DNA of 64,000 nucleotides from Ignavibacteriales bacterium (lineage in GTDB: Bacteria; Bacteroidota; Ignavibacteria; Ignavibacteriales; Ignavibacteriaceae). Position 1 is the stretch's first letter, and every line of letters starts with the position of its first letter. The notes below the pieces were generated by a model. It saw nothing but the letters and a program-made list of their open reading frames with translations. It was not told where the DNA came from and searched no databases. The stretch spans positions 1 through 64,000 of the forward strand of contig JAAYVN010000088.1 in the NCBI GenBank assembly GCA_012517155.1, in the 5' to 3' direction. The position numbers and the translations under genes were made by a program. Below, piece by piece: positions 3,077 through 23,906 of the stretch.

Positions 3077-3910
3077 ATGAAATTTGATTGGAAAAAAGAC
3101 AAAGAGTATGGAGATATCATTTATGAGAAAATGGATGGTATCGCAAAAATAACAATAAACAGACCGGAAGTAAGGAATGCATTTAGACCAGAGACTGTAA
3201 ACGAGATGTATGATGCCTTCGCAAATGCAAGAGAAGACCAAAATATCGGTGTTATACTTCTTACCGGTAAGGGACCCTCCAACGATGGCAAGTATGCCTT
3301 TTGTTCAGGTGGTGATCAGAGAATAAGAGGTGATCAAGGATATATTGGTGGGGATGGTGTTCCAAGGTTAAACGTGCTTGATCTGCAGAAGTTAATTAGA
3401 AGTATTCCAAAACCTGTTATCGCATTAGTTGCAGGCTATGCTATTGGAGGGGGGCATGTACTACATGTTGTGTGTGATTTAACAATTGCTGCAGATAATG
3501 CGATTTTCGGTCAAACTGGTCCTAAAGTAGGTAGTTTTGATGGCGGGTTTGGAGCGAGTTATTTAGCCAGATTGGTTGGACAGAAAAGGGCGAGGGAGAT
3601 ATGGTACCTTTGCCGTCAGTATAATGCCCAAGAGGCTTATGACATGGGTTTGGTAAATAAGGTTGTACCGATTGAGGAACTCGAGAAGGAAGGTGTTCAA
3701 TGGTGCCAGGAGATCTTAGAGAAGTCACCCTTATCTTTGCGTTTATTAAAATCGGCATTTAATGCAGAATTAGACGGCCAGCAGGGGATACAAGAACTTG
3801 CAGGTAACGCAACATTATTATACTATATGAGTGAGGAAGCTCAGGAGGGGAAAAAGGCATATCTTGAGAAACGAAAACCTGACTTTAATAAATTTCCGAA
3901 ACTTCCGTAG
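3077..3910 (+). CDS. menB: 1,4-dihydroxy-2-naphthoyl-CoA synthase
   Basis: A 277-residue crotonase-fold enzyme that closes the second ring of the naphthoquinone (o-succinylbenzoyl-CoA to 1,4-dihydroxy-2-naphthoyl-CoA). Diagnostic MenB stretches are SGGDQ near residue 77, [14 protein letters not shown] near 144-156, and [16 protein letters not shown] just after; the C-terminus ends in the KRKPDF-KFPKLP style seen in Escherichia coli MenB. The QTGP glycine is the position associated with bicarbonate-dependent MenBs. The start is supported by GGAG eight bases upstream. It lies between menH and menA with short gaps, consistent with one operon. Confidence 0.96.
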
Positions 3911-3918
3911 GGAAAACG

Positions 3919-4806
3919 GTGGAACATAGTTACTCAAAAGCAGAAATATGGATATTGGCTAGCCGTCCCAAAACCCTCTTTGCAGCTTTTGTGCCTATAA
4001 TTGTTGGTTCCTCCTTAGCTTATGCTGAGGGACAACTTGATATTTTTATTGCTTTAATAACCCTTATCTGTACAACTTTATTACAAATTGGTACTAACTT
4101 TGCTAACGATTTATTCGACCATTTAAGAGGGGCGGATAATAAAAAGCGAATCGGGCCTTTGCGCGTAATGAATTCGGGTTTAGTAACGTCTAAACAAATG
4201 AAAAAAGCCTTGGTACTCGTGTTTGCTGCAGCATTTATTTTTGGTTTGGTATTAGTCGACAGAGGGGGAATTCTAATACTTGTTATTGGGCTAATATCGA
4301 TTGCAGCTGCGATAGCATACACTGCCGGACCTTTCCCACTTGCCTATAATGGATTAGGAGATATCGCTTCTTTCTTATTTTTCGGGGTAATAGGTACCGT
4401 TGGAACTTATTATTTACAAACAGGTTCTGTTACCTCCTCAGCTTTACTTGCTGCAATTCCAGTTGGCGCGCTTGTTACCAATATTATTGTTGTCAATAAT
4501 TACAGAGATGTTGAACAAGATCGAATTGCGGGTAAGAACACTTTAGCCGTTAAACTTGGTGAGACTTTTTCAAGATATGAATATATTATTTTAATAACTT
4601 GTTCATTTATTGTCCCATTAATAATGTATTTGTATTATGATTTTTCTGAATGGTTATTTTTACCATATCTTACTTTTCCTATTGCTTATAAATTAATCGT
4701 GATGATGTATAATTATACTGGACCGCAACTGAACAAGACTCTTGAATTGACTGCAAAATTTTCTGCTCTTTATGGATTACTATTTGCATTAGGTTTTATT
4801 CTTTAG
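3919..4806 (+). CDS. menA: 1,4-dihydroxy-2-naphthoate polyprenyltransferase
   Basis: A 295-residue integral membrane prenyltransferase of the UbiA superfamily that joins the polyprenyl tail to dihydroxynaphthoate. It is almost entirely hydrophobic, with about eight or nine membrane spans. Two aspartate motifs for Mg-prenyl-diphosphate are visible: NFANDLFDHLRGAD near residue 55-68, and NNYRDVEQDRIAGKNTLAVKLG near 193-214. The start is a GTG with GGGAAA just upstream, overlapping the space directly after menB. It sits in the menH-B-A-E run. The gene for the last step (menaquinone methyltransferase) is not in the window. Confidence 0.95.
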   Translation: MEHSYSKAEIWILASRPKTLFAAFVPIIVGSSLAYAEGQLDIFIALITLICTTLLQIGTNFANDLFDHLRGADNKKRIGPLRVMNSGLVTSKQMKKALVLVFAAAFIFGLVLVDRGGILILVIGLISIAAAIAYTAGPFPLAYNGLGDIASFLFFGVIGTVGTYYLQTGSVTSSALLAAIPVGALVTNIIVVNNYRDVEQDRIAGKNTLAVKLGETFSRYEYIILITCSFIVPLIMYLYYDFSEWLFLPYLTFPIAYKLIVMMYNYTGPQLNKTLELTAKFSALYGLLFALGFIL

Positions 4807-4846
4807 CTATACGGGGATAAAGAAAATCAACGTTAAAGAACGAATT

Positions 4847-6328
4847 ATGTATTTTGATTTTCTTAAACAAAACGCCAGAATCTATCCTTATTCCGCTGCT
4901 TTTTACATTCATAGAAAAGAAGTTTCAAATGTATTTGCAAAACTATCAGAATCGATAAATGAACAATTTCTAAAACTTGATTATTTAACTTTTTTGAATT
5001 TAGTAAATGGAGTTTGTCTTTATCTAAAAAAAGAAATACTAAGCGAGAAAGGATATGTTGGGATTGCTACTAGGAATAATATTGAGAGCATTGTTGCATT
5101 ATATGCGCTCTGGGGTACAGGGCGAATCCCGGTTTTATTAAACCCGAGATCAAGCAGCCAAGAAATTGAAAGAATAAAAGAGATCGTGGGAGAAATTAAA
5201 GTTTTTAATCCGGATGAGATAGAATCCATTATTAACGAAGTGATCAACAGACGTAAGCAAAGGGAACTCAATGTAAGAAGCAGTATAGGCGCTGAGGAAA
5301 TATCAACCGTGATACCAACCTCAGGCACTAGTGGTAAAGTTAAGTTGGTGGGTATGAGTTTTAAGAGTTATCAAGAAAGCTTTCTCAATTCAAAAAGTCA
5401 AATGAACTACAGTGTTAAGGACATTTGGTGGTTATCTATACCACTTTATCATTCAGGTGGATTGTCAATACTGCTTAGGGGATTATTTAGCGGTGGTTCA
5501 GTCATAATTGCAGAAAGTAAAACAGTTTTACAAGATCCAGAACATGTTTTCAATAAAGTAAGCCCGAGTAAGTTATCACTTGTGCAAACCCAAATAAAAA
5601 GATTGAAAGAAATAGGATTTAATGGTATAAAACGAGGGACAATCATATTGGCCGGTGGAGGTCCAATAGATTCTACGCTAATGAAAGCTGCAATTGACAA
5701 AGGGATTGAGATTATAAAAGTATATGGGGCTACTGAAACGGCTTCATTTGTTACCGGTTTAGTTCCCAATGACTTTTATGGTCATGAGGAATCTGCCGGA
5801 AAAGTAATGGAAAATGTTATTATTCACATTCTTGATGAAAAAAGGGAAGTTTTACCTTCCGGAAAAACCGGGGAGGTTGCCATTAAGTCAAAGACCATTT
5901 TCAAGGGTTATATTAATGACCGGTTGGAAACTGAAAGGCGTTTTTGGGGAGACTATTATTTAACAGGTGACATTGGATATCTGGATGACAAAGGATTCCT
6001 TTATATTTTGGGCAGGAAGGATTCAATGATTATTTCGGGAGGTGAAAAAATCTCTCCGGAAGAAGTTGAAAAAGCAATCCTATTATTCCCCGGTATTAGA
6101 GAATGTGCGGTTTTTGGAGTAAAAAGCAAGGAATGGGGAGAAGAAGTAAGAGCCGCATATATTTCAGCAACAGAGTTAGTGGAGGATGATATTAAAGAAT
6201 TCCTTACAAAATCGATATCCGCCTACAAAATTCCAAAAAAGTTTATTAGAGTATCCGAATTACCCAAAACAAGTTTGGGCAAAGTTAAACGAGATGAGTT
6301 GGTTGCTCTCACACATACGATCAACTAG
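4847..6328 (+). CDS. menE: o-succinylbenzoate-CoA ligase
   Basis: A 493-residue member of the acyl-CoA synthetase (ANL) superfamily, activating o-succinylbenzoate with ATP and CoA to feed MenB. The AMP-binding P-loop TSGTSGKVK is near residue 158-166, the adenine-binding segment KVYGATETASF near 290, the TGD motif in YLTGDIGYLDD near 375, the hinge LGRKDSMIISGGEKI near 388, and a catalytic lysine in SLGKVKRD close to the C-terminus. The specific MenE call depends on the menH-menB-menA neighbours. menF, menD and menC are not in this window, so the early half of the pathway must be encoded elsewhere or an alternative source of succinylbenzoate exists. Confidence 0.9.
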   Translation: MYFDFLKQNARIYPYSAAFYIHRKEVSNVFAKLSESINEQFLKLDYLTFLNLVNGVCLYLKKEILSEKGYVGIATRNNIESIVALYALWGTGRIPVLLNPRSSSQEIERIKEIVGEIKVFNPDEIESIINEVINRRKQRELNVRSSIGAEEISTVIPTSGTSGKVKLVGMSFKSYQESFLNSKSQMNYSVKDIWWLSIPLYHSGGLSILLRGLFSGGSVIIAESKTVLQDPEHVFNKVSPSKLSLVQTQIKRLKEIGFNGIKRGTIILAGGGPIDSTLMKAAIDKGIEIIKVYGATETASFVTGLVPNDFYGHEESAGKVMENVIIHILDEKREVLPSGKTGEVAIKSKTIFKGYINDRLETERRFWGDYYLTGDIGYLDDKGFLYILGRKDSMIISGGEKISPEEVEKAILLFPGIRECAVFGVKSKEWGEEVRAAYISATELVEDDIKEFLTKSISAYKIPKKFIRVSELPKTSLGKVKRDELVALTHTIN

Positions 6329-6941
6329 AAAAAAAATAAAGTGCAATTTTGTATTCACACTCAAGCTGATTAAAGCATACAAATAATGTTCCAATTGTTA
6401 AATTAATGCGTTTTTCATGGAATCTTGAGTAACTTTATATTACCTGTAAGTCCCAACCTTATCCTTCGATTTTGAACAAAAAAGGATGTTTTATTCATTA
6501 TTTGAACAGAAAGAATAGCAATTGAAATGTACTATTATTGTGAGTATTTAAATTATTCAGGTGATTTCAGTATGTCATATCCTAGTAGACACAAAAACCA
6601 AGTCCCCTAATTAGCTGAAGTGAAAAAATGCAAATTTTGAGCAATACTTAGCTTAAAATAGGCAGTTTTGAGGCTAATTAAGCAAATTTTAATTCAAATT
6701 GCCAAATCGTTATAACGATCACTGAATGAGAGCAGAAGCCGACCAGAAGGGAAGGGTATATCAGAGGATGCACTTAAGTCACCGTCCATGACCAGAAATT
6801 TGAGAATTTTTTTTGCAATTTTGAAAGAGAGTACTACCAAATCAAGACTCAAAATGTGAGGAAAATTTTTGATTTTGCTTGGTTTGGTTGGAAACTTTCC
6901 ATAATTTAACAATTCAATTTAAATTATATAGAGGAAATAAT
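6329..6941. other. gene-free gap between menE and the isocitrate dehydrogenase gene
   Basis: About 610 A/T-rich bases with stop codons in all frames at short intervals. A minus-strand open frame of 72 codons (6694-6912) and short plus-strand frames around 6725-6860 show no recognisable protein. The central part (about 6720-6800) is more G/C-rich than its surroundings, which could be a decayed gene or a structured leader, but no known riboswitch or terminator pattern was seen. The last 60 bases should hold the promoter of the downstream six-gene run. Confidence 0.5.
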
Positions 6942-8123
6942 ATGAAGCGAACAATTGTATCGATGCCGGGTGACGGAATAGGCAAAACAGTATTACCTGA
7001 GGCAAAACGAGTGCTTAATGCGGCAGGATTTGAAGCTGATTATGTGCATGCAGATATTGGTTGGGATTTTTGGTGCTCGGAAGGTAATGCACTTCCGCAA
7101 AGAACAATAGACCTGTTAAAGGAACATAAAATAGGATTATTTGGGGCAATTACATCTAAACCGAAAGATGCTGCCGACAAAGAATTAAATCCGGAATTAC
7201 AAGGAAAGGGATACGTTTATTTTTCACCCATTGTTGGGTTAAGACAGCTTTTTGATTTAGATATATGCATCAGACCATGCAGGTCGTTCAAAGGAAATCC
7301 TTTAAATTTTATAAGAAGAACAAACGATGGTGCTTTTGAAGAACCTCTTGTTGACAGCGTGATATTCAGACAGAATACAGAAGGACTATATGCAGGAGTT
7401 GAGTGGACTAATCCTCCTAAAACCGTAAGGGACGCTTTCGAAACTCATCCCAAGATGAAAGCTTTCAAGCATGTACCAAGTGAAGATATGGCAATTTCAA
7501 CAAGAATTATGTCACGAAATGCTTGCAGAAGAATTCTGAGAGCTGCTTTTGAGTATGCCAAAAAGTTTGGGTACTCTAATGTTACTGTCTGTGAAAAACC
7601 AAATGTACTCAGGGAAACATCAGGTATGATGTTTAAGGAAGCTAAAATGGTTGCAAAAGAATATCCCGGAATTGCTCTGTGGGATACAAATATTGATGCT
7701 CAAATGATGTGGTTAACAAAGAATCCCGAAACATACGGTGTATTGGTTGCTGAAAATATGTTCGGTGATATTATTAGCGATGCTTTTGCTGGTTTGGTTG
7801 GCGGACTTGGTTTTGCCTGCAGTGCAAATCTTGGAGAAGAAGTCTCAGTATTTGAACCGACCCATGGTTCTGCCCCTAAATATCAAGAACTGAATCCATC
7901 CATTGTTAATCCGATTGCAATGATATTGAGTGCTTGTATGATGCTGGATCATATTGGCGAGAAAGAAAAATCGGATAAAATCCGAAGTGCAATTGCAAAG
8001 GTAATTGAAGATGGAAAAGTTAAGACCTATGATATGCTCAAACTAAAGGGTGGACCGGATGTATTTAAACTTGGTGCCTGCACAACTCAACAAATGACAG
8101 ATGAAATTATAAGAAACCTTTAA
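6942..8123 (+). CDS. isocitrate/isopropylmalate-family dehydrogenase, probably isocitrate dehydrogenase
   Basis: ATG 6942 is preferred over an upstream in-frame start because GAGGAAAT lies directly before it, giving 393 residues beginning MKRTIVSMPGDGIG, the usual family N-terminus. The substrate loop FRQNTEGLYAGVEW, the catalytic CEKPNVLRETSG region and the metal ligands in ENMFGDIISD are present. The coenzyme segment reads THGSAPKY; the Lys-Tyr pair at this place is what NADP-dependent E. coli isocitrate dehydrogenase uses, so NADP is a reasonable guess. Homoisocitrate dehydrogenase is the main alternative, since the neighbouring aconitase resembles homoaconitase. It leads a run of six closely spaced genes ending with citrate lyase subunits, which favours citrate/isocitrate chemistry. 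Confidence 0.85.
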   Translation: MKRTIVSMPGDGIGKTVLPEAKRVLNAAGFEADYVHADIGWDFWCSEGNALPQRTIDLLKEHKIGLFGAITSKPKDAADKELNPELQGKGYVYFSPIVGLRQLFDLDICIRPCRSFKGNPLNFIRRTNDGAFEEPLVDSVIFRQNTEGLYAGVEWTNPPKTVRDAFETHPKMKAFKHVPSEDMAISTRIMSRNACRRILRAAFEYAKKFGYSNVTVCEKPNVLRETSGMMFKEAKMVAKEYPGIALWDTNIDAQMMWLTKNPETYGVLVAENMFGDIISDAFAGLVGGLGFACSANLGEEVSVFEPTHGSAPKYQELNPSIVNPIAMILSACMMLDHIGEKEKSDKIRSAIAKVIEDGKVKTYDMLKLKGGPDVFKLGACTTQQMTDEIIRNL

Positions 8124-8132
8124 GGAGTAAAA

Positions 8133-8666
8133 ATGAGAGAAAAAGTATTAGAAATATGGCCTGAAATCAATTGGATCAAGAATGAAGAATTAAGAGAAAA
8201 AACACTTCATTGCTGGATATATGCAATCGAAAATAGTGTACTCAATATAGAAGATCTTGATGTGATACCTTTCTCGCTTTTACTTAAAGACTGCAAAATA
8301 TCTTTTATGAATCATAAAAGGACTTGCGTTCAGTTGGCTGTTGAAATGGCAGAAAGAATGCTCAAAAACTTTAAGGATGAAATAAAGATTGATATGGATT
8401 ACCTTATTTCGGGAGCAATTTTAATTGATGTTGGTAAACTTCTTGAATATGAAATTGTGGATGGCAAACTCAAAACAAGTAATGCCGGAAAACTAATACG
8501 ACATCCATTCAGCGGTCTTGCTATTGCAGATAGATATGGCTTGCCAGCAGAAGTACAACATATCATAGCCACTCATTCTAAGGAGGGGGATCTTGGAGCA
8601 AGAACTGTTGAATCAATAGTAGTACACCATGCTGATTTTGTAAGTTTTGATCCATTTAAAGCTTAG
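8133..8666 (+). CDS. HD-domain-like protein with altered HD motif
   Basis: A 177-residue soluble protein whose layout matches HD-type phosphohydrolases: a first His in NHKRTCVQLAVEMAERM, the central HD signature, then late His residues in HIIATHS and an Asp in VVHHADFVSFD. At the central signature, however, the sequence reads GAILIDVGKLL, so the normal His-Asp pair is Ile98-Asp99. Loss of that His usually weakens or abolishes metal-dependent hydrolysis, so it may be a regulatory or binding protein. It sits 9 bases after the dehydrogenase gene and 33 bases before aconitase, in the same orientation. Its role in this metabolic run is unknown. Confidence 0.6.
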   Translation: MREKVLEIWPEINWIKNEELREKTLHCWIYAIENSVLNIEDLDVIPFSLLLKDCKISFMNHKRTCVQLAVEMAERMLKNFKDEIKIDMDYLISGAILIDVGKLLEYEIVDGKLKTSNAGKLIRHPFSGLAIADRYGLPAEVQHIIATHSKEGDLGARTVESIVVHHADFVSFDPFKA

Positions 8667-8699
8667 TGATAATAATCCGAAAAATTGTTAGGAGAGAAA

Positions 8700-10670
8700 A
8701 TGTCGCAAACACTCATTGAGAAAATAGCACAAAAATATGCATACGGTTTAAGTAAAGGGCATGAAGTACTTAGCGGGGACTATTTATCGATTCAGCCTGC
8801 ATATATTATGACTCATGATAATACAGGGGCCATAATACCAAAATTTAAATCTATAGGGGCTACTAAACTACATAATCCAAGGCAAGTAGTTCATACTTTA
8901 GACCACAATGTTCAAGACACTTCAGATAAGAATTTAGAAAAATATAAAAAAATAGAGGAGTTCTCGAAAAACATGGGGGCTGATTTCTATCCAGCAGGAC
9001 GCGGCATAGGTCATCAGATTATGTGCGAAGAAGGTTATGCATTCCCGGGGACTATGGTGGTTGCCTCTGATAGCCACTCGAATATGTACGGGGGCTTGGG
9101 TTGTCTTGGAACACCTATTGTCAGAACTGACGCGGCGGCGATATGGGCGACCGGAAGAACCTGGTGGCAAGTACCTCCTATCGCTAAAGTGGAGTTAAAA
9201 GGGAAATTAGCCCCCCACACAACAGGAAAGGATGTAATCATAGCTCTTTGTGGTTTTTTTAATAAAGATGAGGTCCTTAATCATGCAATTGAATTTACAG
9301 GAGAAGGTGTTGAAGCGCTTGAGATAAATGAAAGACTGGCAATAGCCAATATGACCACTGAGTGGGGTGCTTTGGCTGGGGTTTTTACGATTGATGCCAA
9401 GACGATAGATTGGTTAAGGAAACGGGAGGAATTCATTAGTGTTCGAGGTCTTGAAGGTGTAAACTCTGATGACGATGGAAGGGGAGAACACCCTAGAATC
9501 AACAAGCAAAGAATCGACCAACTTGAAAGTAATATACTCAAAGCTGATGAAAATGCTTTCTATGCAAAAGAAATCTTATTTGATATTTCAACCGTTGAAC
9601 CATTTGTATCAGGTCCAAATACGGTCAAGATAATGACTTCTGTTAGTGAGATTAAGAAAAAAAAGGTTAAGATCAATAAAGCTTATTTGGTTTCATGTGT
9701 AAATAGCAGAGTAAGTGATTTATCCGAAGCCGCAAAAATTATAAAGGGGAAAAAAGTAGCCGAAGGAGTTGATTTTTACATTGCGGCAGCATCGAGTGAA
9801 GTCGAAGAGGAAAGTCGAAAAAAAGGTGACTGGAACACATTGTTGGAAGCAGGTGCCAAGCCTTTGCCACCGGGATGCGGGCCATGTATTGGATTAGGAA
9901 CCGGGCTTTTAGAAGATGGTGAAGTTGGTATCTCAGCAACAAATAGAAATTTCAAAGGACGAATGGGCTCACCGAATGCCAAGGCATATCTTGCATCTCC
10001 TGCTGTGGTAGCTGCATCTGCAATATCCGGATACATTGATTATGAATCCGCTGAGACACTTCCCGAAGTTAAGGGTAGTATTAAGGTCAACACCAAACCA
10101 TCAGGTAAAAAAACGGAAGTGAAAATACTTGGAGGTTTCCAACCGAAAGTAAAAGCTGAGGTTGTTTTCTGTCATCAGGATAACCTGAATACTGATGGAA
10201 TATATCCAGGTAAATACACTTATATTGATGATTTTACAAAAGAACAACAAGCAGAAGTGGTAATGGAAAACTATGATCCCCAATTCAAGGAAATTGCAAA
10301 TGATGGGGATGTTTTAGCAGGTGGTTTTAATTTTGGTACCGGTAGTTCCAGAGAGCAAGCAGCAACAGCCTTAAAGTATAAAGGAATTAGACTGGTTATA
10401 GCAGGTTCATTTAATGAAACTTATAAGCGTAACGCTTTAAATAATGGATTTCTATTAATTGAGAGTCCTGAGCTAATCAAAGACTTAAAACAAAAGTATG
10501 GATCTGATAAATTAACAGTTAAAACCAGTGAAATTATTGATATCAACTTTGTAAATTCGCAAATGGTTTTTATGGGAAAAATGTATGAGATTGATCCAAT
10601 TGGAGAGGCGGCACAGGAACTGTTATTAGTTGAAGGGCTGGAGAATTGGGTAAAGAACAGGATTAAATAA
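8700..10670 (+). CDS. aconitase-family hydratase, homoaconitase-like
   Basis: ATG 8700 is chosen because TTAGGAGAGAAA precedes it; the frame is open five codons further up. The 656-residue protein carries the iron-sulfur ligands Cys333 (VSCVNSR), Cys393 and Cys396 (PGCGPCIG), and the C-terminal swivel domain with NFGTGSSREQA. Blocks such as YPAGRGIGHQIM-EEGYAFP, VASDSHSNMYGG and TDAAAIWATGRTWWQVPP read, from memory, closer to fungal homoaconitase (Lys4) than to bacterial AcnA or AcnB. The likely reaction is citrate to isocitrate through cis-aconitate, but homocitrate or 2-methyl-cis-aconitate are possible substrates. Context with isocitrate dehydrogenase before it and citrate lyase subunits after it supports a citrate-related role. 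Confidence 0.85.
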   Translation: MSQTLIEKIAQKYAYGLSKGHEVLSGDYLSIQPAYIMTHDNTGAIIPKFKSIGATKLHNPRQVVHTLDHNVQDTSDKNLEKYKKIEEFSKNMGADFYPAGRGIGHQIMCEEGYAFPGTMVVASDSHSNMYGGLGCLGTPIVRTDAAAIWATGRTWWQVPPIAKVELKGKLAPHTTGKDVIIALCGFFNKDEVLNHAIEFTGEGVEALEINERLAIANMTTEWGALAGVFTIDAKTIDWLRKREEFISVRGLEGVNSDDDGRGEHPRINKQRIDQLESNILKADENAFYAKEILFDISTVEPFVSGPNTVKIMTSVSEIKKKKVKINKAYLVSCVNSRVSDLSEAAKIIKGKKVAEGVDFYIAAASSEVEEESRKKGDWNTLLEAGAKPLPPGCGPCIGLGTGLLEDGEVGISATNRNFKGRMGSPNAKAYLASPAVVAASAISGYIDYESAETLPEVKGSIKVNTKPSGKKTEVKILGGFQPKVKAEVVFCHQDNLNTDGIYPGKYTYIDDFTKEQQAEVVMENYDPQFKEIANDGDVLAGGFNFGTGSSREQAATALKYKGIRLVIAGSFNETYKRNALNNGFLLIESPELIKDLKQKYGSDKLTVKTSEIIDINFVNSQMVFMGKMYEIDPIGEAAQELLLVEGLENWVKNRIK

Positions 10671-10693
10671 AAAATTTCAATATGAGGAAAGTT

Positions 10694-12127
10694 ATGGAAA
10701 AATCAATTTCAAGAATAATTTCTGAATTTGCGGTAAACCTAAAATATAATGATCTACCGGAAAATGTAGTATATGAAGTTAAGAGATATTTATATGACTC
10801 AATAGGTTGTGCATATGGTGCAATGGGAACGAAGGATGTAAATATACTAAGGGATATTTATATGGATGCTGGAGGTAATCCTGAATCTACTATAATAGGT
10901 TTCGGGGATAAACTTCCGGCAATAAGCACTTCGTTAGTAAACTCACTTATGATAAGAGCTTTGGATTTTAATGATATATACTGGAAAGAAGATCCCTCAC
11001 ATCCCTCGGACATCATACCTGCGGCCTTGTCTATAGGAGAAAAAGTTAATGCAAAAATGGAAGATATTATAACTGCAATTGTGCTTGCCTATGAGTTTGA
11101 GCAAAGACTATGCGAGTATGCAGTGCCCGGAATCAGGGAAAGAAGATGGCATCATGCGACTTTAACACAGTTTGTTTCACCAATCGTTGCAGGTAAGGTA
11201 ATGGGTTTATCAGTTGATCAGATGGTTAATGCAATCGGTATTTCCGGTTCTCATAATCACACAATTGGCTGCCCTACAGCAGGAAAACTGACCATGATGA
11301 AAAATACTGTTGATCCAATGGCAACGCAGTCAGGTGTAATTGGAGCCTTAATGGCGGAGAAAGGATATAGCGGCACTGAGGCTGTTTTCGAAGGAAAAGA
11401 AGGTTTTATGGACTGCTTTGGTGGATGGGATGTTAAGAATCAGGAAGTTAAACCGGTATTAATGCAGGGCAGGGAAAGAACAGAAGAATGGAAGTGGGAT
11501 TTGGATAAATTAATTGGAAATCTCGGAAAGAAATTTAAGATACTTGAATGCAGTATGAAAGCTTTTCCAACTGAAGCTTTGACTCACACTCATATTTCCG
11601 CCACATTGAAAGTAGTAACACAAAATAATATTCCGTATAGTGAAATTGATTCTGTGACGATTACAACGATTGCAAGAGCCTGTGATATTTTATTTGATCC
11701 ACATAAATACAGACCTGAATCCCGGGAAACTGCAGACCACTCCTTACCATATTGTATAGCTGCTGCATTAGTTGATCATAAAATTACCACACAATCATTT
11801 TCTGAAGAAAAATTAAAAGATAAAAGGATCTGGGAAGTGATTGATAAAATAAAGGGTGAGGCATCCGAGGAATTTGAAAAGATGTTTCCCGCGAAGCAAC
11901 CTTCAAAAGTTATAATTAAAATAAAAGACGGAAGAGAGTTTTCAGAGTATCTTGAATATCCCAAAGGTGATCCAAGAGAACCAATGACTATGGAAGATCT
12001 GGATAACAAATTTGAAGGATTAGCTTCAGAAAGACTAAGCCCTGAAAGAATGAAGGAAATAAAAGAAATGATATTAAACTGTGAAAAAATGAATGTCAGA
12101 GATTTTATGAATAAATTAAAAGTTTAG
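10694..12127 (+). CDS. MmgE/PrpD-family protein (methylcitrate dehydratase / cis-aconitate decarboxylase type)
   Basis: ATG 10694 is favoured over ATG 10682 because the bases between them (AGGAAAG) form the ribosome binding site; this gives 477 residues. The protein has the MmgE/PrpD hallmarks: a helical N-terminal domain with VKRYLYDSIGCAYGA, the IRALDFNDIYW segment, and the C-terminal lid domain with ECSMKAFPTEALTHTHI. Known family members are 2-methylcitrate dehydratase (PrpD) and cis-aconitate decarboxylase, which makes itaconate. The sequence alone does not separate these. It lies between the aconitase and the citrate lyase subunits, so it should act on citrate, methylcitrate or cis-aconitate. 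No methylcitrate synthase (PrpC) is in the window. Confidence 0.85.
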   Translation: MEKSISRIISEFAVNLKYNDLPENVVYEVKRYLYDSIGCAYGAMGTKDVNILRDIYMDAGGNPESTIIGFGDKLPAISTSLVNSLMIRALDFNDIYWKEDPSHPSDIIPAALSIGEKVNAKMEDIITAIVLAYEFEQRLCEYAVPGIRERRWHHATLTQFVSPIVAGKVMGLSVDQMVNAIGISGSHNHTIGCPTAGKLTMMKNTVDPMATQSGVIGALMAEKGYSGTEAVFEGKEGFMDCFGGWDVKNQEVKPVLMQGRERTEEWKWDLDKLIGNLGKKFKILECSMKAFPTEALTHTHISATLKVVTQNNIPYSEIDSVTITTIARACDILFDPHKYRPESRETADHSLPYCIAAALVDHKITTQSFSEEKLKDKRIWEVIDKIKGEASEEFEKMFPAKQPSKVIIKIKDGREFSEYLEYPKGDPREPMTMEDLDNKFEGLASERLSPERMKEIKEMILNCEKMNVRDFMNKLKV

Positions 12128-12129
12128 AA

Positions 12130-13359
12130 GTGACAAAAATGAAAAATCCAAAAATAATTGCTAGTTCAGGTCAAAGGGGCGATAAAGTGCGTTCCGACTG
12201 CTTCTGCCAAATAGAGACTAACTATTCCGAAGGAAATGAAATTCTTATAAAAAGTAAGGTTGAAGTCATGTATGGTAAGTCCATACATAAACTAGCCTCA
12301 GATATTATAGAGTATTTCGGGATTAAAAACTCAAAAATATTAATTGAAGATTCCGGAGCTCTACCTTTTATAATTGCAGCTAGAATTGAATGTGCAATTA
12401 ATAGAGCCGGACTAGGCAATGGAAAAGAATATCTTTTACCAATAAACAAAAAGAACACGTACGCAACTGCAATTGACAGAGGTAGAAGAAGCCGGCTTTA
12501 CTTACCCGGAAATGAGCCAAAGTTTTTTATAAATGCAGGTTTGCATTCCCCGGATGGAATTATTTTAGATCTTGAGGATAGTGTTGCTCCAAGTGAAAAA
12601 GATGCAGCGCAATTAATAGTAAGAAACGCATTGAGATCTGTTGATTTTTTTGGTGCAGAAAGAATGGTCAGGATTAATCAGTTTCCCAGAGGGCTAGAAG
12701 ATTTAAAGTATATTGTTCCACATAATGTGAATGTTATTTTACTGCCAAAGGCTGAAAGTGCTGATTCAATTAAAACAATGGAGGAAGAAGTTGAAAAATT
12801 GAAAAAACAACATGAAGTTAAAAATGAAATTTACTTTATGCCTATTCTAGAAAGCGCACAGGGGATTATCAATGCATTCGAAATAGCAAAGGCTTCCAAG
12901 AAAAACTGTGCATTAGCAATAGGATTGGAAGATTATACTGCTGATATTGGTACCCAGAGAACAGCGGAAGGTAGAGAGAGTTATTTTGCAAGAACGATGC
13001 TGGTCAATGCAGCAAAGGCCGCAGGTATTCAAGCGATTGATACTGTTTTTTCTGATGTGAATGATATGGAGGGGTTAAGAATATCAGTACTAGAAGCCAA
13101 ATCAATTGGATTTGAAGGAAAGGGATGTATTCATCCAAGACAGATTAAAGTGATACATGAGGCATTTGTTCCAACATTTGATGAAATTGAGAAAGCAAAA
13201 AAAATAGTGACTGCTTTTGACGATGCAAAGAAAAAAGGTCTAGGTGTGATCGCTTTAGGAAGTAAAATGATAGATGCACCTGTAGTCAAAAGAGCACAAA
13301 ATACGATCAAATTAGCAATTGAGAACAAACTAATTCCGAAAAACTGGAATAAAAATTAG
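12130..13359 (+). CDS. citrate lyase acyl carrier (CitD)–beta subunit (CitE) fusion
   Basis: A 409-residue protein starting with GTG 12130 (ATG 12139 is an alternative three codons in). Residues ~10-100 align by eye with CitD, the carrier that bears a dephospho-CoA-derived arm: SDCFCQIE near the front and IEDSGALPFIIAARIECAINRA-type C-terminal part (seen as EDSGALP then ARIECAI). Residues ~115-400 are CitE/HpcH: RRSRLYLPGN, DGIILDLEDSVAPSEKD, MVRINQ, LPKAES, ILESAQG, IGLEDYTADIG and IDTVFSDVND. CitE cleaves citryl-carrier to acetyl-carrier and oxaloacetate. CitD and CitE are normally separate genes. The only nearby Ser in the arm-attachment region is Ser22, and its alignment to the classic site needs a one-residue shift. 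Citramalate lyase is an alternative, as it uses homologous subunits. Confidence 0.85.
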   Translation: MTKMKNPKIIASSGQRGDKVRSDCFCQIETNYSEGNEILIKSKVEVMYGKSIHKLASDIIEYFGIKNSKILIEDSGALPFIIAARIECAINRAGLGNGKEYLLPINKKNTYATAIDRGRRSRLYLPGNEPKFFINAGLHSPDGIILDLEDSVAPSEKDAAQLIVRNALRSVDFFGAERMVRINQFPRGLEDLKYIVPHNVNVILLPKAESADSIKTMEEEVEKLKKQHEVKNEIYFMPILESAQGIINAFEIAKASKKNCALAIGLEDYTADIGTQRTAEGRESYFARTMLVNAAKAAGIQAIDTVFSDVNDMEGLRISVLEAKSIGFEGKGCIHPRQIKVIHEAFVPTFDEIEKAKKIVTAFDDAKKKGLGVIALGSKMIDAPVVKRAQNTIKLAIENKLIPKNWNKN

Positions 13360-13371
13360 AAGAATGAAATT

Positions 13372-14928
13372 ATGAAAATGATAAAAAATGCAGCAGGAAG
13401 GTTAGTCCCGGATAAAATTAACGGAGAAAAGCAAATACCTTTTGCAGGTGTAAACAAATATCGTCCATCAGGATATAAAGCAAAGCTACCGGTAAGAAGT
13501 TGTGTAGATTACCCAATGGACGGAAATAAAGTGGTGAAGTCATTAAAGGATGCTTTAATTAAATCAGGAATTAAGGACGGAATGACAATATCAACTCATC
13601 ATCACTTAAGGAACGGGGATGTTCTGACAAATACACTTTTTGATACGTTAAAAGAACTTGGTGTAAAGAATATAAGATGGTTCCCGAGCGCATCTTTCCC
13701 ATGTCATCAGCACCTTATAAAGTATCTTGAAGACGGAACAATACATCACATCGAAGGAAGCATGAATGGTCCGTTAGGAAAGTTTACATCAATGGGGAAG
13801 ATGAAAGGTGTGGGCGTTTTGAGATCACATGGTGGCAGATATCAGTCTGTTCAAGATGGGGAAGTCCATATTGATATCGCAGTGATTGCTTCACCAACGG
13901 CTGATCCATTTGGAAATGCAAACGGAGTTACAGGAAAAAGCGCTTGCGGATTAATAGGTTTTGCATTAGCAGATTCTGAGTACGCCGATAAAGTTATAGT
14001 AGTTACAGATAATCTAGTTCCGTTCCCGTGTTTACCCTGGCAGATACAAGGGAATAATGTAGACTTTGTAGTAGAGGTTGCGAGTCTAGGTGATCCTTCA
14101 AAAATAGTTTCTGGTACAACAGAAGTTACAAAGTCACCAGACAGGTTATTGATTGCTGAGTATGTTGCACAATTCATTGATGAAGCAGGAATCATGAAAG
14201 AAGGGTTCTCATTTCAAGCGGGAAGTGGAGGTACTAATCTTGCATTTGTTCTCTATTTAAAAGAGCGAATGAAAGCTAAAGGGGTTAAAGCCAGATTTGT
14301 TAGAGGCGGGAGCACGAAATACTTGGTTGAATTGCTTGAGGAAGGATTAACGGATTACATTTTAGATGGACAGACATTTGATCTTGAAGGTGTAAGGAGC
14401 ATGAGAGAAAATCCAAATCATGTGAATACCAGTCCCTTCACAAGCTATAATTTTCATGGAAAGGGTAATTTTGCATCAATTATAGATACAGCTGTTCTTG
14501 GAGCGACTGAAGTTGATATTAACTTTAATGCAAACGTTGTAAGTCATTCAGATGGTTATCTATTACACGGAATAGGTGGTTGGCAGAACTGTTTGTATTC
14601 AAAATGTACAATATTGGCAATCCCATCTTTCAGAGATCGAATACCAGTTATTGTTGATGAAGTAACGACGCTTTGCGGACCAGGAGAACTGATAGATGTG
14701 ATAATTACGGAGAGAGGGATTGCGATTAATCCTTTAAGGAAAGATTTAATTAAAGCTATGAAGGGAAGCTTGCTGCCGATCAAAACAATTACACAACTAA
14801 GAGACGAAGTATTTGCAATTTGCGGAGGTGTTCCAATGAAGCCTAAAACCGATCGGAAACAAGTAGTAGCAGTTGTGAAATGGGTAGATGGGACTATACT
14901 TGATTCCGTATTTAAGGTTGTTACTTAG
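13372..14928 (+). CDS. citF: citrate lyase alpha subunit (acyl-ACP transferase)
   Basis: A 518-residue CitF, the subunit that swaps the acetyl group on the carrier for citrate. Recognisable blocks include the N-terminal NAAGRLVPD and GVNKYRPSG segments, STHHHLRNGD near residue 83, GGRYQSVQDGE, SPTADPFGNANG, GSGGTNLAFVLYL, and the C-terminal RDRIPVIVDEVTTLCGPGE region. It starts 12 bases after the CitD–CitE gene, so carrier, lyase and transferase are encoded together. Genes that build and attach the carrier's prosthetic group (citG, citX) and the acetate ligase citC are not in the window. The 3' end overlaps by 8 bases, tail to tail, with a minus-strand lipoprotein gene. Confidence 0.93.
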   Translation: MKMIKNAAGRLVPDKINGEKQIPFAGVNKYRPSGYKAKLPVRSCVDYPMDGNKVVKSLKDALIKSGIKDGMTISTHHHLRNGDVLTNTLFDTLKELGVKNIRWFPSASFPCHQHLIKYLEDGTIHHIEGSMNGPLGKFTSMGKMKGVGVLRSHGGRYQSVQDGEVHIDIAVIASPTADPFGNANGVTGKSACGLIGFALADSEYADKVIVVTDNLVPFPCLPWQIQGNNVDFVVEVASLGDPSKIVSGTTEVTKSPDRLLIAEYVAQFIDEAGIMKEGFSFQAGSGGTNLAFVLYLKERMKAKGVKARFVRGGSTKYLVELLEEGLTDYILDGQTFDLEGVRSMRENPNHVNTSPFTSYNFHGKGNFASIIDTAVLGATEVDINFNANVVSHSDGYLLHGIGGWQNCLYSKCTILAIPSFRDRIPVIVDEVTTLCGPGELIDVIITERGIAINPLRKDLIKAMKGSLLPIKTITQLRDEVFAICGGVPMKPKTDRKQVVAVVKWVDGTILDSVFKVVT

Positions 14929-19698: not shown

Positions 19699-21024
19699 AT
19701 GATTAGACAGATTATACCGGTTTTAGTAATAATTGTTTATGTTACTTTAAACTTTGCACAAGAGCGCGAAATCAAGAAGACATACTATCCGCATGGAAGT
19801 ATAAAAACAAAGGGTGAATATATCAACGGCAAACTTGAGGGAATATATTACGAATATTATCCCAATGGTAAAATATGGAAGGAATGGAATTTCGTAAATG
19901 GGAAAGAAGATGGAATATCCAAATGGTACTTTGAGGATGGACTATTAAGTATTGAGTGGAATTACCGGAATGGAATTCGTTCCGGGCTTTCTAAGTGGTA
20001 TTACGAGACAGGCGAATTGTGGGCAGAACAATACTACTCGTTCGGCAATCTGGAAGGAATAACTTATACTTACTATAAAACGGGTGAAAAGCAAGGAGAA
20101 TGGAACTATAGGGAAGGAAGATTAGACGCTATTTCGAGAACATTTTATCAAACCGGTGAACTAGAAGTAGAAAGGAATTTTGACAGGGGAGTATTACAGG
20201 GAAAGTCAAAGGTATATCATAAAAACGGTTATGTAGCATTAGTTGCAAACTATGTTAATGATAAACTTGAAGGAGAGTTATTAATTTATGATGCCTCGAA
20301 TTTTGTAAGGGTTAAAGATACATACAAAAATGATCAATTATTAGACAGAATCAGATATGATATTCTTGGTAAATATGAGTCTAGTGAAAGGTTTGAGAGA
20401 AATTACTTTAAGAATGGCGTGTTAAAGGATGAAGTCTTGTTTAAAGAGGGAGTTAAAGAAGGGTTAATGAAAATTATGTATGTAAGTGGATTCTTGAATG
20501 AAGAACTTATCTATAAGGGAGATGTTCTAGAGGGGAGAGTGCAATCTTTTTTTGAGGGGGGTATTGTCCAAAATGAGATTGAATATTTTAAGGGTAAGAA
20601 AAAGGGCATAGAGAGCACTTATTATGAAACAGGTGAATTAAAAAGTACGGCAATGTACCGTGATGATAAATTGAACGGAGTAAAAATTACCTATTACAAA
20701 AATGGTAATATTGAGTCATCTTCCAATTATGTGGACAATATTCTTACTGGGGAATTTAAAAAGTTTTATGAGAATGGGTTCCTTCAGTCAATATGCAAGT
20801 ATATTGATGGTAAAAAAAACGGAGAGATGAACTGGTATTTTGAAAATGGAAAGAAACTCAAGATTGAGAGATATGTCAATGGAATTATCGAAGGTTGGGT
20901 AAAAGAATATTTCGAAGATGGGGAGACAGTAATGAAAGAGACCCTATATGTTAGTGGAAAGATGGAGAACAGCAAGGAATATGATAAAGAAGGAAATATA
21001 ATCTGGCTTTATGGTTATGATTAA
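19699..21024 (+). CDS. secreted MORN_2/YwqK-type repeat protein (first paralogue)
   Basis: A 441-residue protein with an N-terminal signal peptide (MIRQIIPVLVIIVYVTLNFAQ) followed by repeats of about 23 residues along nearly its whole length. The recurring unit is YYExGxLxxExxYxxGKxEG, for example YYPNGKIWKEWNFVNGKEDG, WYFEDGLLSIEWNYRNG and TYYETGELKSTAMYRDDKLNG. These match the MORN_2 repeat of the family often named YwqK antitoxin, a label that says little about function. The regular turns suggest an elongated beta-sheet solenoid in the periplasm or at the surface. A paralogue follows 21 bases later. No toxin-like partner is present. Confidence 0.8.
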   Translation: MIRQIIPVLVIIVYVTLNFAQEREIKKTYYPHGSIKTKGEYINGKLEGIYYEYYPNGKIWKEWNFVNGKEDGISKWYFEDGLLSIEWNYRNGIRSGLSKWYYETGELWAEQYYSFGNLEGITYTYYKTGEKQGEWNYREGRLDAISRTFYQTGELEVERNFDRGVLQGKSKVYHKNGYVALVANYVNDKLEGELLIYDASNFVRVKDTYKNDQLLDRIRYDILGKYESSERFERNYFKNGVLKDEVLFKEGVKEGLMKIMYVSGFLNEELIYKGDVLEGRVQSFFEGGIVQNEIEYFKGKKKGIESTYYETGELKSTAMYRDDKLNGVKITYYKNGNIESSSNYVDNILTGEFKKFYENGFLQSICKYIDGKKNGEMNWYFENGKKLKIERYVNGIIEGWVKEYFEDGETVMKETLYVSGKMENSKEYDKEGNIIWLYGYD

Positions 21025-21045
21025 GTCGGAAAGGAGTTTAAAAAA

Positions 21046-21951
21046 ATGAAGCATTTCAGTTTTATATTTATTGTTATTTTCGCTTTGGAAATTGTCCCTC
21101 AAGATGGAGAGATAAGGAATTATTATGAGAATAAAGTGCTGAAGGAAATCCTAAACTATTCAAATAGTCAGCTGTCTGGGGAGTGCTACTATTACACTAA
21201 AGATGGTATTTTATCAGAGAGAAAAGAATTTAAAAACAATATACTTGATGGATTATCAGTCTCGTTTTATTCAAGTGGTGTGCTTAAAGAAAAGTATCGA
21301 TGGGCAAAGGGAATCCTACAGGGAAATTATTCAAGATATTATGAATCAGGGATCTTATCCGAAATTGGGAATTATGAAAACGGATTACCAGATGGGGAAA
21401 TGAAAACCTTATTTGAGAGTGGGAAACTCAGATCGAAAATCAATCTTGTTCTCGGGAAAAGGGAAGGAGTAAATTACCGATACTATGAAAACGGTAATGT
21501 AGAAGCGGAATCCAATTTTATTAATGATGTTCAGCAAGGAACCACCAAATGGTTTTATGAAGATGGCACATTAAAGGGAGTATATAACTACAACTCTGGA
21601 CATTTAGATGGAGAGATTAAGGAATTTTACGCTAGCGGAGAACTTGAAGTGATCAAAATATTTGAGGTTGGAAAAAGACAAGGGTTATTTACTTATTTTT
21701 ATAAGAATGGTAAAATCAGTAAGACTGAAAATTATATCAATAGTTGGAAGGAGGGAAAAGTTAGAACATATTATGAAAATGGTGTTTTGTGGACTGAACA
21801 TAATTACGTTAGTGATAAAATTGAAGGAGAGGCAAGAATTTACAGGGATGATTCTTCACTTTGGTATTTAGAAGAATTTCAAAAAGGAACGATAATAAGA
21901 AGTAAAGAATTTGATAAAAACGGGAATATGATTAAAGAACAAAAATTTTAA
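21046..21951 (+). CDS. secreted MORN_2/YwqK-type repeat protein (second paralogue)
   Basis: A 301-residue relative of the preceding gene product, preceded by a good AAGGAG site. The first ~18 residues are hydrophobic and look like a signal peptide, ending around EIVPQ. About ten repeats follow of the YYExGxLxxxxxYxxGKxxG type, such as YYESGILSEIGNYENGLPDG and YYENGNVEAESNF, ending with the same DKNGN-I terminal unit (EFDKNGNMIKEQ here, EYDKEGNIIW in the first). Shared ends and repeat type point to local gene duplication. It is followed 10 bases later by aguB, but nothing links it to polyamine metabolism. Confidence 0.78.
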   Translation: MKHFSFIFIVIFALEIVPQDGEIRNYYENKVLKEILNYSNSQLSGECYYYTKDGILSERKEFKNNILDGLSVSFYSSGVLKEKYRWAKGILQGNYSRYYESGILSEIGNYENGLPDGEMKTLFESGKLRSKINLVLGKREGVNYRYYENGNVEAESNFINDVQQGTTKWFYEDGTLKGVYNYNSGHLDGEIKEFYASGELEVIKIFEVGKRQGLFTYFYKNGKISKTENYINSWKEGKVRTYYENGVLWTEHNYVSDKIEGEARIYRDDSSLWYLEEFQKGTIIRSKEFDKNGNMIKEQKF

Positions 21952-21961
21952 TGGAATTAAG

Positions 21962-22852
21962 ATGGAAAAAAGATTTAAGGTTGGATTAGTACAAATGAGC
22001 ATGTCAAAAGAGACTGACATAAATAGAAATAAAGCCGTTAAACTAGTTGAGGAAGCTGCAGATAAGGGGGCAAATGTAATTTTACTTCCCGAATTATATT
22101 CCTCGCAATATTTTTGTCAGAAAGAAGATATAGAATTATTTAATCTTGCTGAGAAAATACCAGGAAAATCAACATCCATCTTTTGCGAAACCGCAAAGCG
22201 AACAAGTACTGTAATAATTGTACCTCTGTTTGAAAAAAGAACTGTGGGATTATATCATAATAGTCTGGTGGTTGTAAACAGCGATGGAGAGATTATCGGA
22301 GTTTACCGTAAGATGCATATACCGGATGATCCTTCATTTTATGAAAAGTTTTATTTTGCACCAGGTGACCTAGGGTTCAAAGTATTTGATACTGAGTTTG
22401 GTAAACTAGGGACTCTTATATGTTGGGATCAATGGTTTCCTGAAGGAGCAAGAATAACAACATTAATGGGGGCAATTGCACTTTTTTATCCCACCGCAAT
22501 AGGATGGCACCCTTATGAAAAAGAGAAGTATGGTGAAACACAAAGGGAAGCATGGAAGACCGTGCAAAGAGGGCACGCTATTGCAAACGGATTGTACGTT
22601 TGTGTGTGCAATCGGACTGGTTTTGAAAAAACAGTTGAAACTCAGGGAGGTATAGAATTTTGGGGATCATCATTTATTACTGATCCGCAGGGAGTTATTA
22701 TTGCAGAGGCCCCAATTAATAAAGAGGCAGTAATTGTTGCGGAAATTGATATTGATCATATTGAAGAAGTAAGGCGGAACTGGCCCTTCCTTCGAGACAG
22801 AAGAACAGATCATTATGGAGATATAGCTAAACTTTTTATTGATCAAAAATAA
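21962..22852 (+). CDS. aguB: N-carbamoylputrescine amidase
   Basis: A 296-residue nitrilase-superfamily enzyme that releases putrescine, CO2 and ammonia from N-carbamoylputrescine. The catalytic triad is visible: Glu in LLPELYSSQYF, Lys in VYRKMHIPDDPSFYEKFYF, and Cys in LGTLICWDQWFPEGAR. The YEKFYFAPGD and ICWDQWFPE blocks are typical of AguB rather than of other nitrilases. The length is as expected and there is no signal peptide. The next gene is agmatine deiminase (AguA), which makes its substrate, with only 7 bases between them. Together they convert agmatine to putrescine. Confidence 0.93.
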   Translation: MEKRFKVGLVQMSMSKETDINRNKAVKLVEEAADKGANVILLPELYSSQYFCQKEDIELFNLAEKIPGKSTSIFCETAKRTSTVIIVPLFEKRTVGLYHNSLVVVNSDGEIIGVYRKMHIPDDPSFYEKFYFAPGDLGFKVFDTEFGKLGTLICWDQWFPEGARITTLMGAIALFYPTAIGWHPYEKEKYGETQREAWKTVQRGHAIANGLYVCVCNRTGFEKTVETQGGIEFWGSSFITDPQGVIIAEAPINKEAVIVAEIDIDHIEEVRRNWPFLRDRRTDHYGDIAKLFIDQK

Positions 22853-22859
22853 TGGAAAT

Positions 22860-23906
22860 ATGATTACCAAAAGAATTCCAGCAGAGTGGGAAAAACATTC
22901 AGCGACATTAATTTCATTACCTCATAACAAAGAGGATTGGCCAGGAAAATTCCATCCTATTCCATGGGTTTACGTTGAAATTATCAAAAAGTTAACATCC
23001 GGGGAAAAAGTATTTGTTGTCGTTAAGGGAAAGCAAAACGAATACAGATTCAAGAAGATGCTTTCGAAATCAGGTGTTAATTTAAAGAGAGTTAAATTTT
23101 TAATATTTCCAACAAACAGAAGTTGGATGAGAGATACTGCTCCTTTCTTTGTAAAAGAGGACTTGGGGGAAGGAGAGTTAGTTAGTGCAGTAAAATTTAA
23201 GTTTAATGCATGGGCAAAATACTCCAATTGGAAAAAGGACGAAAGAATTCCAGAACTACTCACTTCCAGGCTTCAAGTTAAGATAAGCAAAGCTATATAT
23301 CAATCCAAGGAAGTTGTTTTAGAAGGAGGTGCAATTGATAAAAATGGATGGGGAACTTTATTGACAACCGAAGAGTGTCTGATGGATCAGAATGTCCAGG
23401 TTAGAAATCCAGGATACAGTAAAAAAGATTACGAAGAAGTATTTCAACAGTTTTGTGGAATTAAAAAAATCATCTGGTTAAAAAAAGGTATTATTGGTGA
23501 TGATACCCATGGTCATGTTGATGATGTAGCACGGTTTGTAAGTCGGAATAGTATCGTACTATGCAAAGAGACGAACTCAAAAGACGAGAACTATAAGTTA
23601 CTCGAAGAAAACAAGGAGATAATAGAAGGTGAGGTAAATGAAGCAGGTGAGAAACTCCAGATAATATCACTACCTATGCCAGAACCAATTATATTTGAGG
23701 GGATGAGACTTCCTGCAAGTTATGCAAATTTTTACATTGGCAATAATGTTGTGCTTGTTCCCACATTTAATGATAGGAATGACAGAATAGCAATAGGTAT
23801 TTTAGCCGAACTTTTTCCAAATAGAGAAGTGGTAGGGATTCACGCAGTTGATTTAATCTGGGGATTGGGGACTATACATTGTCTTTCACACGAAATTCCT
23901 GAATGA
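22860..23906 (+). CDS. aguA: agmatine deiminase
   Basis: A 348-residue guanidino-modifying enzyme that hydrolyses agmatine to N-carbamoylputrescine. ATG 22860 is taken as the start because it gives the normal N-terminus (ITKRIPAEWEKHSATLISLPHN); an ATG at 22839 would overlap aguB. Substrate and catalytic residues are recognisable: WMRDTAPFF near residue 85, VLEGGAID near 152, DDTHGHVDDVARF near 212, and the nucleophilic Cys close to the C-terminus in GLGTIHCLSHE. In most homologues the last motif reads GGGNIHC; the change to GLGTIHC is mild. An arginine decarboxylase to supply agmatine is not in the window. Confidence 0.92.
   Translation: MITKRIPAEWEKHSATLISLPHNKEDWPGKFHPIPWVYVEIIKKLTSGEKVFVVVKGKQNEYRFKKMLSKSGVNLKRVKFLIFPTNRSWMRDTAPFFVKEDLGEGELVSAVKFKFNAWAKYSNWKKDERIPELLTSRLQVKISKAIYQSKEVVLEGGAIDKNGWGTLLTTEECLMDQNVQVRNPGYSKKDYEEVFQQFCGIKKIIWLKKGIIGDDTHGHVDDVARFVSRNSIVLCKETNSKDENYKLLEENKEIIEGEVNEAGEKLQIISLPMPEPIIFEGMRLPASYANFYIGNNVVLVPTFNDRNDRIAIGILAELFPNREVVGIHAVDLIWGLGTIHCLSHEIPE

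Follow-up and report, generated by a model that had tools for sequence, protein, structure and literature searches.

Citrate lyase is a textbook enzyme which needs its own covalent CoA derivative, together with dedicated genes to make it. The window analysed here (the first 64,000 nucleotides of contig JAAYVN010000088.1, from an Ignavibacteriales bacterium) contains a gene in which a carrier domain of the CitD type is joined to the lyase subunit CitE, and in which the residue expected to bear that derivative is replaced. The question raised by this locus is whether such a domain is still a carrier at all and, if it is not, how the enzyme would work.

The fusion protein and its domains

The gene is a single open frame with a GTG start, as confirmed by an ORF check, in a source genome of 3.29 Mb that is 99.65% complete; the closest named relatives of its product are from Ignavibacteriales. 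The features on which the argument turns are as follows.

12130..13359, + strand: CitD-like/CitE fusion protein, 409 aa (Pfam/NCBIfam matches, AlphaFold model)
12184..12207, + strand: KVRSDCFC, altered prosthetic-group site, residues 19-26 (alignment with canonical CitD)
12193..12408, + strand: CitD-like domain, residues 22-93 (PF06857 match)
12487..13137, + strand: CitE / HpcH-HpaI lyase domain, residues 120-336 (PF03328 match; structure comparisons)
13372..14928, + strand: CitF, citrate lyase alpha subunit-like CoA-transferase, 518 aa (PF04223, TIGR01584, PDB 2hj0 and 1xr4)

The CitD/MdcC carrier family PF06857 matches the fusion with 54.2 bits (cut-off 25.1), this frame being its sole match in the source genome, and the CitE family PF03328 matches residues 120-336 with 172 bits, also above its cut-off; the fold of the lyase domain runs on to about residue 400. 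The single frame and the two Pfam matches bear out an earlier note on this DNA, which had placed CitD and CitE in one chain. Both of the corresponding NCBIfam models score below their cut-offs: citD (TIGR01608) aligns its profile positions 14-87 to residues 21-94 with 49.3 bits against 63.5, and citE reaches 286.8 bits against an equivalog cut-off of 443.4. Both domains are confidently predicted in an AlphaFold model (mean pLDDT 92.1, pTM 0.89).

The altered attachment motif

In Klebsiella CitD the modified residue is Ser14. In the fusion, Arg21 (12190-12192), Ser22 (12193-12195) and Asp23 (12196-12198) occupy the corresponding region, with numbering that hangs on the choice of start codon, such that the in-frame ATG at 12139 would turn Ser22 into Ser19. 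When aligned jointly with 13 canonical CitD sequences, taken from E. coli K-12 and plasmid records, Arg21 is paired with the first Ser of the ESSD/ESGD motif (E-S-[SG]-D), a position that is Ser in 13 of 13 canonical proteins. Ser22 falls in the next column, where canonical CitD has Ser in 12 cases and Gly in one.

This replacement is characteristic of the fused proteins at large. The alignment set of 111 protein rows came to 101 after identical ORFs and a second copy of the window gene (L001) were dropped, and one further row (L108), which is without its N-terminus, is counted as a gap. In the old attachment column these rows have Arg in 83 cases, Lys in 13, Ala in two, and Pro, Ser and a gap in one each; in other words, 96 of the 100 proteins covering the site have Arg or Lys. 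The Ser22 column contains Ser in 96, Ala in four and one gap. Asp23 is present in all 100 fused proteins covering the site and is common to all 13 canonical ones, and 87 of these also keep Cys24, the other 13 having Phe, Leu, Ile, Val or Thr. The Glu preceding the attachment Ser in 13 of 13 canonical CitD is, in contrast, mostly Val or Ile in the fusions. Asp74 and Gly76 of the CitD-like domain are also retained in the joint alignment.

A pairwise alignment to a profile built from canonical CitD only gives a similar distribution for the 93 fused rows in which the site is covered (Arg 73, Lys 12, Ser five, Ala two, Pro one), and four of its five Ser rows are an upstream, non-conserved Ser which is reached only through an opened gap. 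Both alignments thus agree with the earlier reading of KVRSDCFC, namely Arg where Ser is expected and Ser22 one position later. Nor is Ser22 the ordinary modified residue of citrate lyases, since all 13 canonical CitD have that Ser one column earlier. The sole fused protein with Ser in the old attachment column is L028, where the motif reads ISSDC; its genome (G100) is without CitG or CitX, and the Ser is probably a chance reversion.

Genes for the prosthetic group

According to a review (PMC10798043), CitG and CitX build the citrate lyase prosthetic group and CitC acetylates it. CitG (PF01874) was found in none of 146 genomes of the order, the source genome included (none of 107 when only high-quality genomes are counted), and CitX (PF03802) was likewise found in none of the 146. 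Neither turned up in 50 genomes from other groups that carry the fusion, a search which covered 50 of the 80 loci found by contig search, and the E. coli positive control was detected each time. An earlier observation that there is no citX or citG nearby therefore holds not only for the window but for the whole genome. CitC (PF08218) has no match in the source genome. Among the 146 relatives, 67 have weak, partial PF08218 matches, most of which lie in frames of 130-200 aa; two of the matches were scanned, both proved to be CoaD, and their assignment as CitC was rejected. From the roles of CitG, CitX and CitC as given in the review, and from their absence here, it follows that the known route by which the carrier is modified is missing.

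Is Ser22 a shifted attachment site?

Two options had been left by the earlier note: either the site of attachment has shifted, or the modification of the carrier is not the usual one. The invariance of Ser22 across fusions was proposed as a check. A shift would mean that the site has moved by one residue, with Ser22 holding the usual arm and some transferase other than a CitX relative attaching it. The best evidence for such a shift is the retention of Ser22 in 96 of 100 fused proteins. Ser22 is, however, not invariant: besides the four Ala rows of the alignment (L081, L089, L094 and L096), Ala is found in L126, and a tree of 76 rows places the change from Ser to Ala at least four separate times, four changes being forced by well-supported branches. 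Moreover, the CitF encoded beside L081, L089, L094 and L096, the four of five Ala22 loci that were checked, is intact and retains Glu at position 380. An essential attachment role for Ser22 is therefore disfavoured, given its repeated replacement in lineages that otherwise look intact. To this must be added that, with CitG in none of the 146 and none of the 50 genomes, the precursor of the arm would have no known source, and that CitX is missing from both sets of genomes as well. A shifted site is thus very unlikely, and of the two options it is the second, a carrier without the usual modification, that has strong support, in keeping with the missing CitG and CitX and the Arg/Lys in the Ser column.

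Another way to keep a carrier would be for the conserved Cys24 to hold acyl groups directly, as a thioester in place of the long arm. Its presence in 87 of the 100 rows covering it speaks for this; against it, 13 members have Phe, Leu, Ile, Val or Thr at that position, and a Cys side chain would hardly be able to span two separate active sites, such that this explanation is highly improbable. The KVRSDCFC loop does appear, from the conservation of Ser22 and Cys24, to be under selection, and it could conceivably have another chemical role.

With the Ser column lost, Ser22 replaceable and both CitG and CitX absent, the CitD-like domain is very probably, on this sequence evidence, not a carrier of phosphoribosyl-dephospho-CoA, whether at Ser22 or elsewhere. 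That the arm has been lost in the fused family is itself highly likely, and an arm synthase or transferase of a new, non-homologous type is conceivable and would be compatible with the data.

Distribution of the fusion

It might be thought that the fusion or its motif is an artefact of assembly or reading frame. Such a reading is refuted by recurrence, and its probability is practically negligible: within the order, 110 of 146 genomes match the same protein (E ≤ 1e-30), three of them (G045, G075 and G128) by fragments only; 80 fusion loci from many phyla were found by contig search; and of 395 genomes sampled evenly from the phylum, 37 show PF06857 matches, every one of them in frames of 377-455 aa and hence fused. 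The record titles of the loci, whose phylum names are mostly labels of metagenome-assembled genomes and may in some cases be wrong, include Ignavibacteriota, Bacteroidota, Neomarinimicrobiota, Cloacimonadota, Eisenbacteria, Krumholzibacteria, Zixibacteria, Acidobacteriota, Gemmatimonadota, KSB1, Stahlbacteria and Aminicenantes, among others. A tree of the lyase domain separates the fusions from six canonical CitE with support of 100/100; L086, L087 and L092 are not in it, nor are most of the loci below L032. The fusions are, in other words, a widespread and self-consistent family. In the literature searched, which comprised titles and the openings of abstracts and left subscription journals mostly outside, neither a CitD-CitE fusion nor a prosthetic-group-free citrate lyase is described, and the portions available of PMC9560492, PMC6212598 and PMC5460018 hold nothing on this enzyme.

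The catalytic parts

The residues common to canonical and fused CitE include R119, R120, E149, D150, R181, E241, D268, R288 and D382, and there are more; ten positions are conserved differently in the fusions, for example R122 instead of Met. The adjoining CitF matches PF04223 with 443 bits, above the cut-off, and TIGR01584 with 495.5 bits, just below the cut-off of 501.45. In a comparison limited to loci that yield a full-length CitF, which 27 of the 111 did not, it has many invariant residues in common with canonical CitF and sixteen positions that are conserved differently. In a separate set, 90 of 91 CitF rows have Glu at position 380, and the other has a gap there.

Among solved structures, malyl-CoA lyases and human CLYBL, in complex with CoA or propionyl-CoA, come nearest in fold, the top 25 PDB entries having Z of 28-34 over 211-287 residues of the lyase domain. 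This comparison of the whole model spans mainly residues 86-399 and barely probes the CitD-like fold; a phmmer search for a solved structure of CitD or of a CitD-like domain gave no significant match, and a search of viral structures gave generic barrel matches only. That the nearest folds are lyases of free acyl-CoA suggests, by analogy, that the fusion too may act on free CoA thioesters.

The gene neighbourhood

The fusion lies at the end of a row of genes coding, in order, for a dehydrogenase, an HD-domain protein, an aconitase-type protein and a PrpD-type protein, with citF directly downstream. The upstream members are the following.

6879..8123, + strand: isocitrate/isopropylmalate dehydrogenase family protein, conserved cassette member (PF00180)
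8133..8666, + strand: HD-domain protein, conserved cassette member (TIGR00277)
8685..10670, + strand: aconitase-superfamily protein, homoaconitase type, conserved cassette member (TIGR00139, 861 bits, cut-off 529.9)
10682..12127, + strand: MmgE/PrpD-family hydro-lyase, conserved cassette member (family profile matches)

Across the 80 loci, at an identity floor of 45%, CitF is found in 73, the PrpD-type protein in 35, the HD protein in 28, the aconitase-type protein in 27 and the dehydrogenase in 24. At least one of the latter four is present in 49 of 80, many loci being cut by contig ends, which also account in part for the seven loci where CitF does not adjoin the fusion. Some loci have an altered order, or distant aconitase-family genes (28-40% identity) as substitutes; outside the window, too, the neighbours from the aconitase family fall into broad homoaconitate/isopropylmalate subfamilies. 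Since the source genome (G000) also has citrate synthase and a second, conventional aconitase on another contig (C66), and is without the citrate-binding domain of ATP-citrate lyase (PF16114, present in 11 of 146 relatives), the cassette looks like an addition to the oxidative TCA cycle and not its core.

Some further arrangements may be recorded. The cassette of the window holds two hydro-lyases, the homoaconitase-type aconitase at 8685-10670 and the PrpD-type protein. Two hydro-lyases are again found at L095 (labelled Thermoanaerobaculum; 3751-9203), where an HD gene, two aconitase-type units, one of 604 aa and fused, the other split into 419 + 208 aa, and then CitDE and CitF stand in succession. 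In L059, L069 and L072 a CitD-CitE fusion has no CitF homologue in the neighbourhood retrieved. At L115, on a Cupriavidus plasmid (NZ_CP076061.1), no CitD was found within 6 kb of a CitF-like gene, and CitE-like frames lie on the opposite strand; this is perhaps another carrier-free arrangement. Elsewhere in the window, a 5'-open frame at 3-800 runs from the last part of a TatD nuclease into a TatD-associated radical SAM protein (TIGR04038); the menaquinone genes menB, menA and a menE-like ligase stand in a row at 3077-6328; two adjacent proteins of MORN-variant repeats (PF07661) lie at 19699-21951; and at 21962-23906 there are N-carbamoylputrescine amidase-like and agmatine deiminase-like genes with a 14-base overlap, both below NCBIfam cut-offs.

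A proposed mechanism and its substrate

Type-II CoA transferases such as CitF act via a ternary complex with an ACP thioester, according to PMC9196870. The question is then what would take the place of that thioester in an enzyme without the arm. On balance, fused CitDE and CitF probably constitute a citrate-lyase-type enzyme that acts on free CoA thioesters, with the CitD fold as a non-carrier module. The use of free CoA by the complex, for which the absence of the arm is the argument, is rather likely. CitF would form citryl-CoA from citrate, with acetyl-CoA or a different acyl-CoA as the donor of CoA, and the CitE domain would cleave citryl-CoA to oxaloacetate and acetyl-CoA. Were acetyl-CoA the donor, the net reaction would be that of citrate to acetate and oxaloacetate; were it succinyl-CoA, acetyl-CoA would be released. 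Isolated alpha and beta subunits of citrate lyase are reported, by Dimroth and Eggerer in 1975, to act on acetyl-CoA and citryl-CoA. The CitD fold may persist in order to join and position the two catalytic parts, holding their active sites together, and the Arg or Lys at the former attachment point (Arg21 here) might, purely as a suggestion, grip the phosphates of free CoA.

The substrate is likely to be citrate, an assignment made from distant homology, in which the equivalog cut-offs of citE, citD and citF are all missed. The same free-CoA enzyme might instead make or cleave a homologue, be it homocitrate, citramalate or 2-methylcitrate. The cassette aconitase does score as a homoaconitase, well above its cut-off, and the dehydrogenase comes nearest to homoisocitrate dehydrogenase models, albeit below cut-off. 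The conventional second aconitase elsewhere in the genome points the same way, as do the ten CitE and sixteen CitF positions that are conserved unlike those of canonical citrate lyase. Nevertheless, citE and citF score highest among the NCBIfam models for the two subunits, and the cassette also fits the sequence citrate, aconitate, isocitrate, 2-oxoglutarate; a homologous substrate is possible but somewhat unlikely.

Relation to known systems

Canonical citrate lyase, CitDEF with CitC, CitX and CitG, is built from homologous parts (CitD-like, CitE, CitF) arranged in an identical order, and conserved residues of CitE and CitF are common to both. It differs from the present enzyme in that here CitD is fused to CitE, Arg or Lys replaces the Ser of E-S-[SG]-D, the genome and its relatives have no CitG or CitX, and the source genome has no CitC. 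The window enzyme is thus descended from the same parts as citrate lyase, yet it is not a canonical citrate lyase, since the carrier Ser and CitG/CitX, which are defining features, are missing. The free-CoA lyases of the HpcH/HpaI family (malyl-CoA lyase, CLYBL, citramalyl-CoA lyase) have the TIM-barrel fold and the conserved lyase core in common with the fusion but match only its lyase part, and among NCBIfam models citE (286.8 bits) scores above RipC (171.2) and malyl-CoA lyase (86). MdcC, the carrier of malonate decarboxylase, belongs to the same Pfam family as the CitD-like domain, although its model TIGR03130 gives just 12.5 bits there against a cut-off of 84.1. ATP-citrate lyase would serve the same step, from citrate to oxaloacetate and an acetyl unit, but is a different enzyme.

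In this regard, the citCDEFXG genes of Geobacter bemidjiensis, which are proposed for the reductive TCA cycle in PMC2996986, are the standard, arm-bearing version, unlike the fusion. ATP-citrate lyase is missing from Melioribacter roseus, and PMC3534657 leaves open its replacement by another enzyme; for a Marinimicrobia clade, a reductive TCA cycle was inferred from 'citrate lyase' (PMC5688066). Both inferences may depend on what the fused enzyme does. The most far-reaching proposal would be a prosthetic-group-free citrate lyase across the FCB group and neighbouring phyla, which, by transferring CoA from a donor such as succinyl-CoA and splitting citryl-CoA, would release acetyl-CoA in free form together with oxaloacetate, an ATP-citrate-lyase-independent step which could close the reductive TCA cycle where this was thought to be lacking; as a whole, this proposal is speculative and rather unlikely. 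The fused family is also a warning against reading 'citrate lyase' annotations in these phyla as the standard, acetate-releasing enzyme. If the proposed mechanism is true, a large family with the carrier fold, but with neither the attachment residue nor the biosynthesis genes, would show free CoA replacing the arm.
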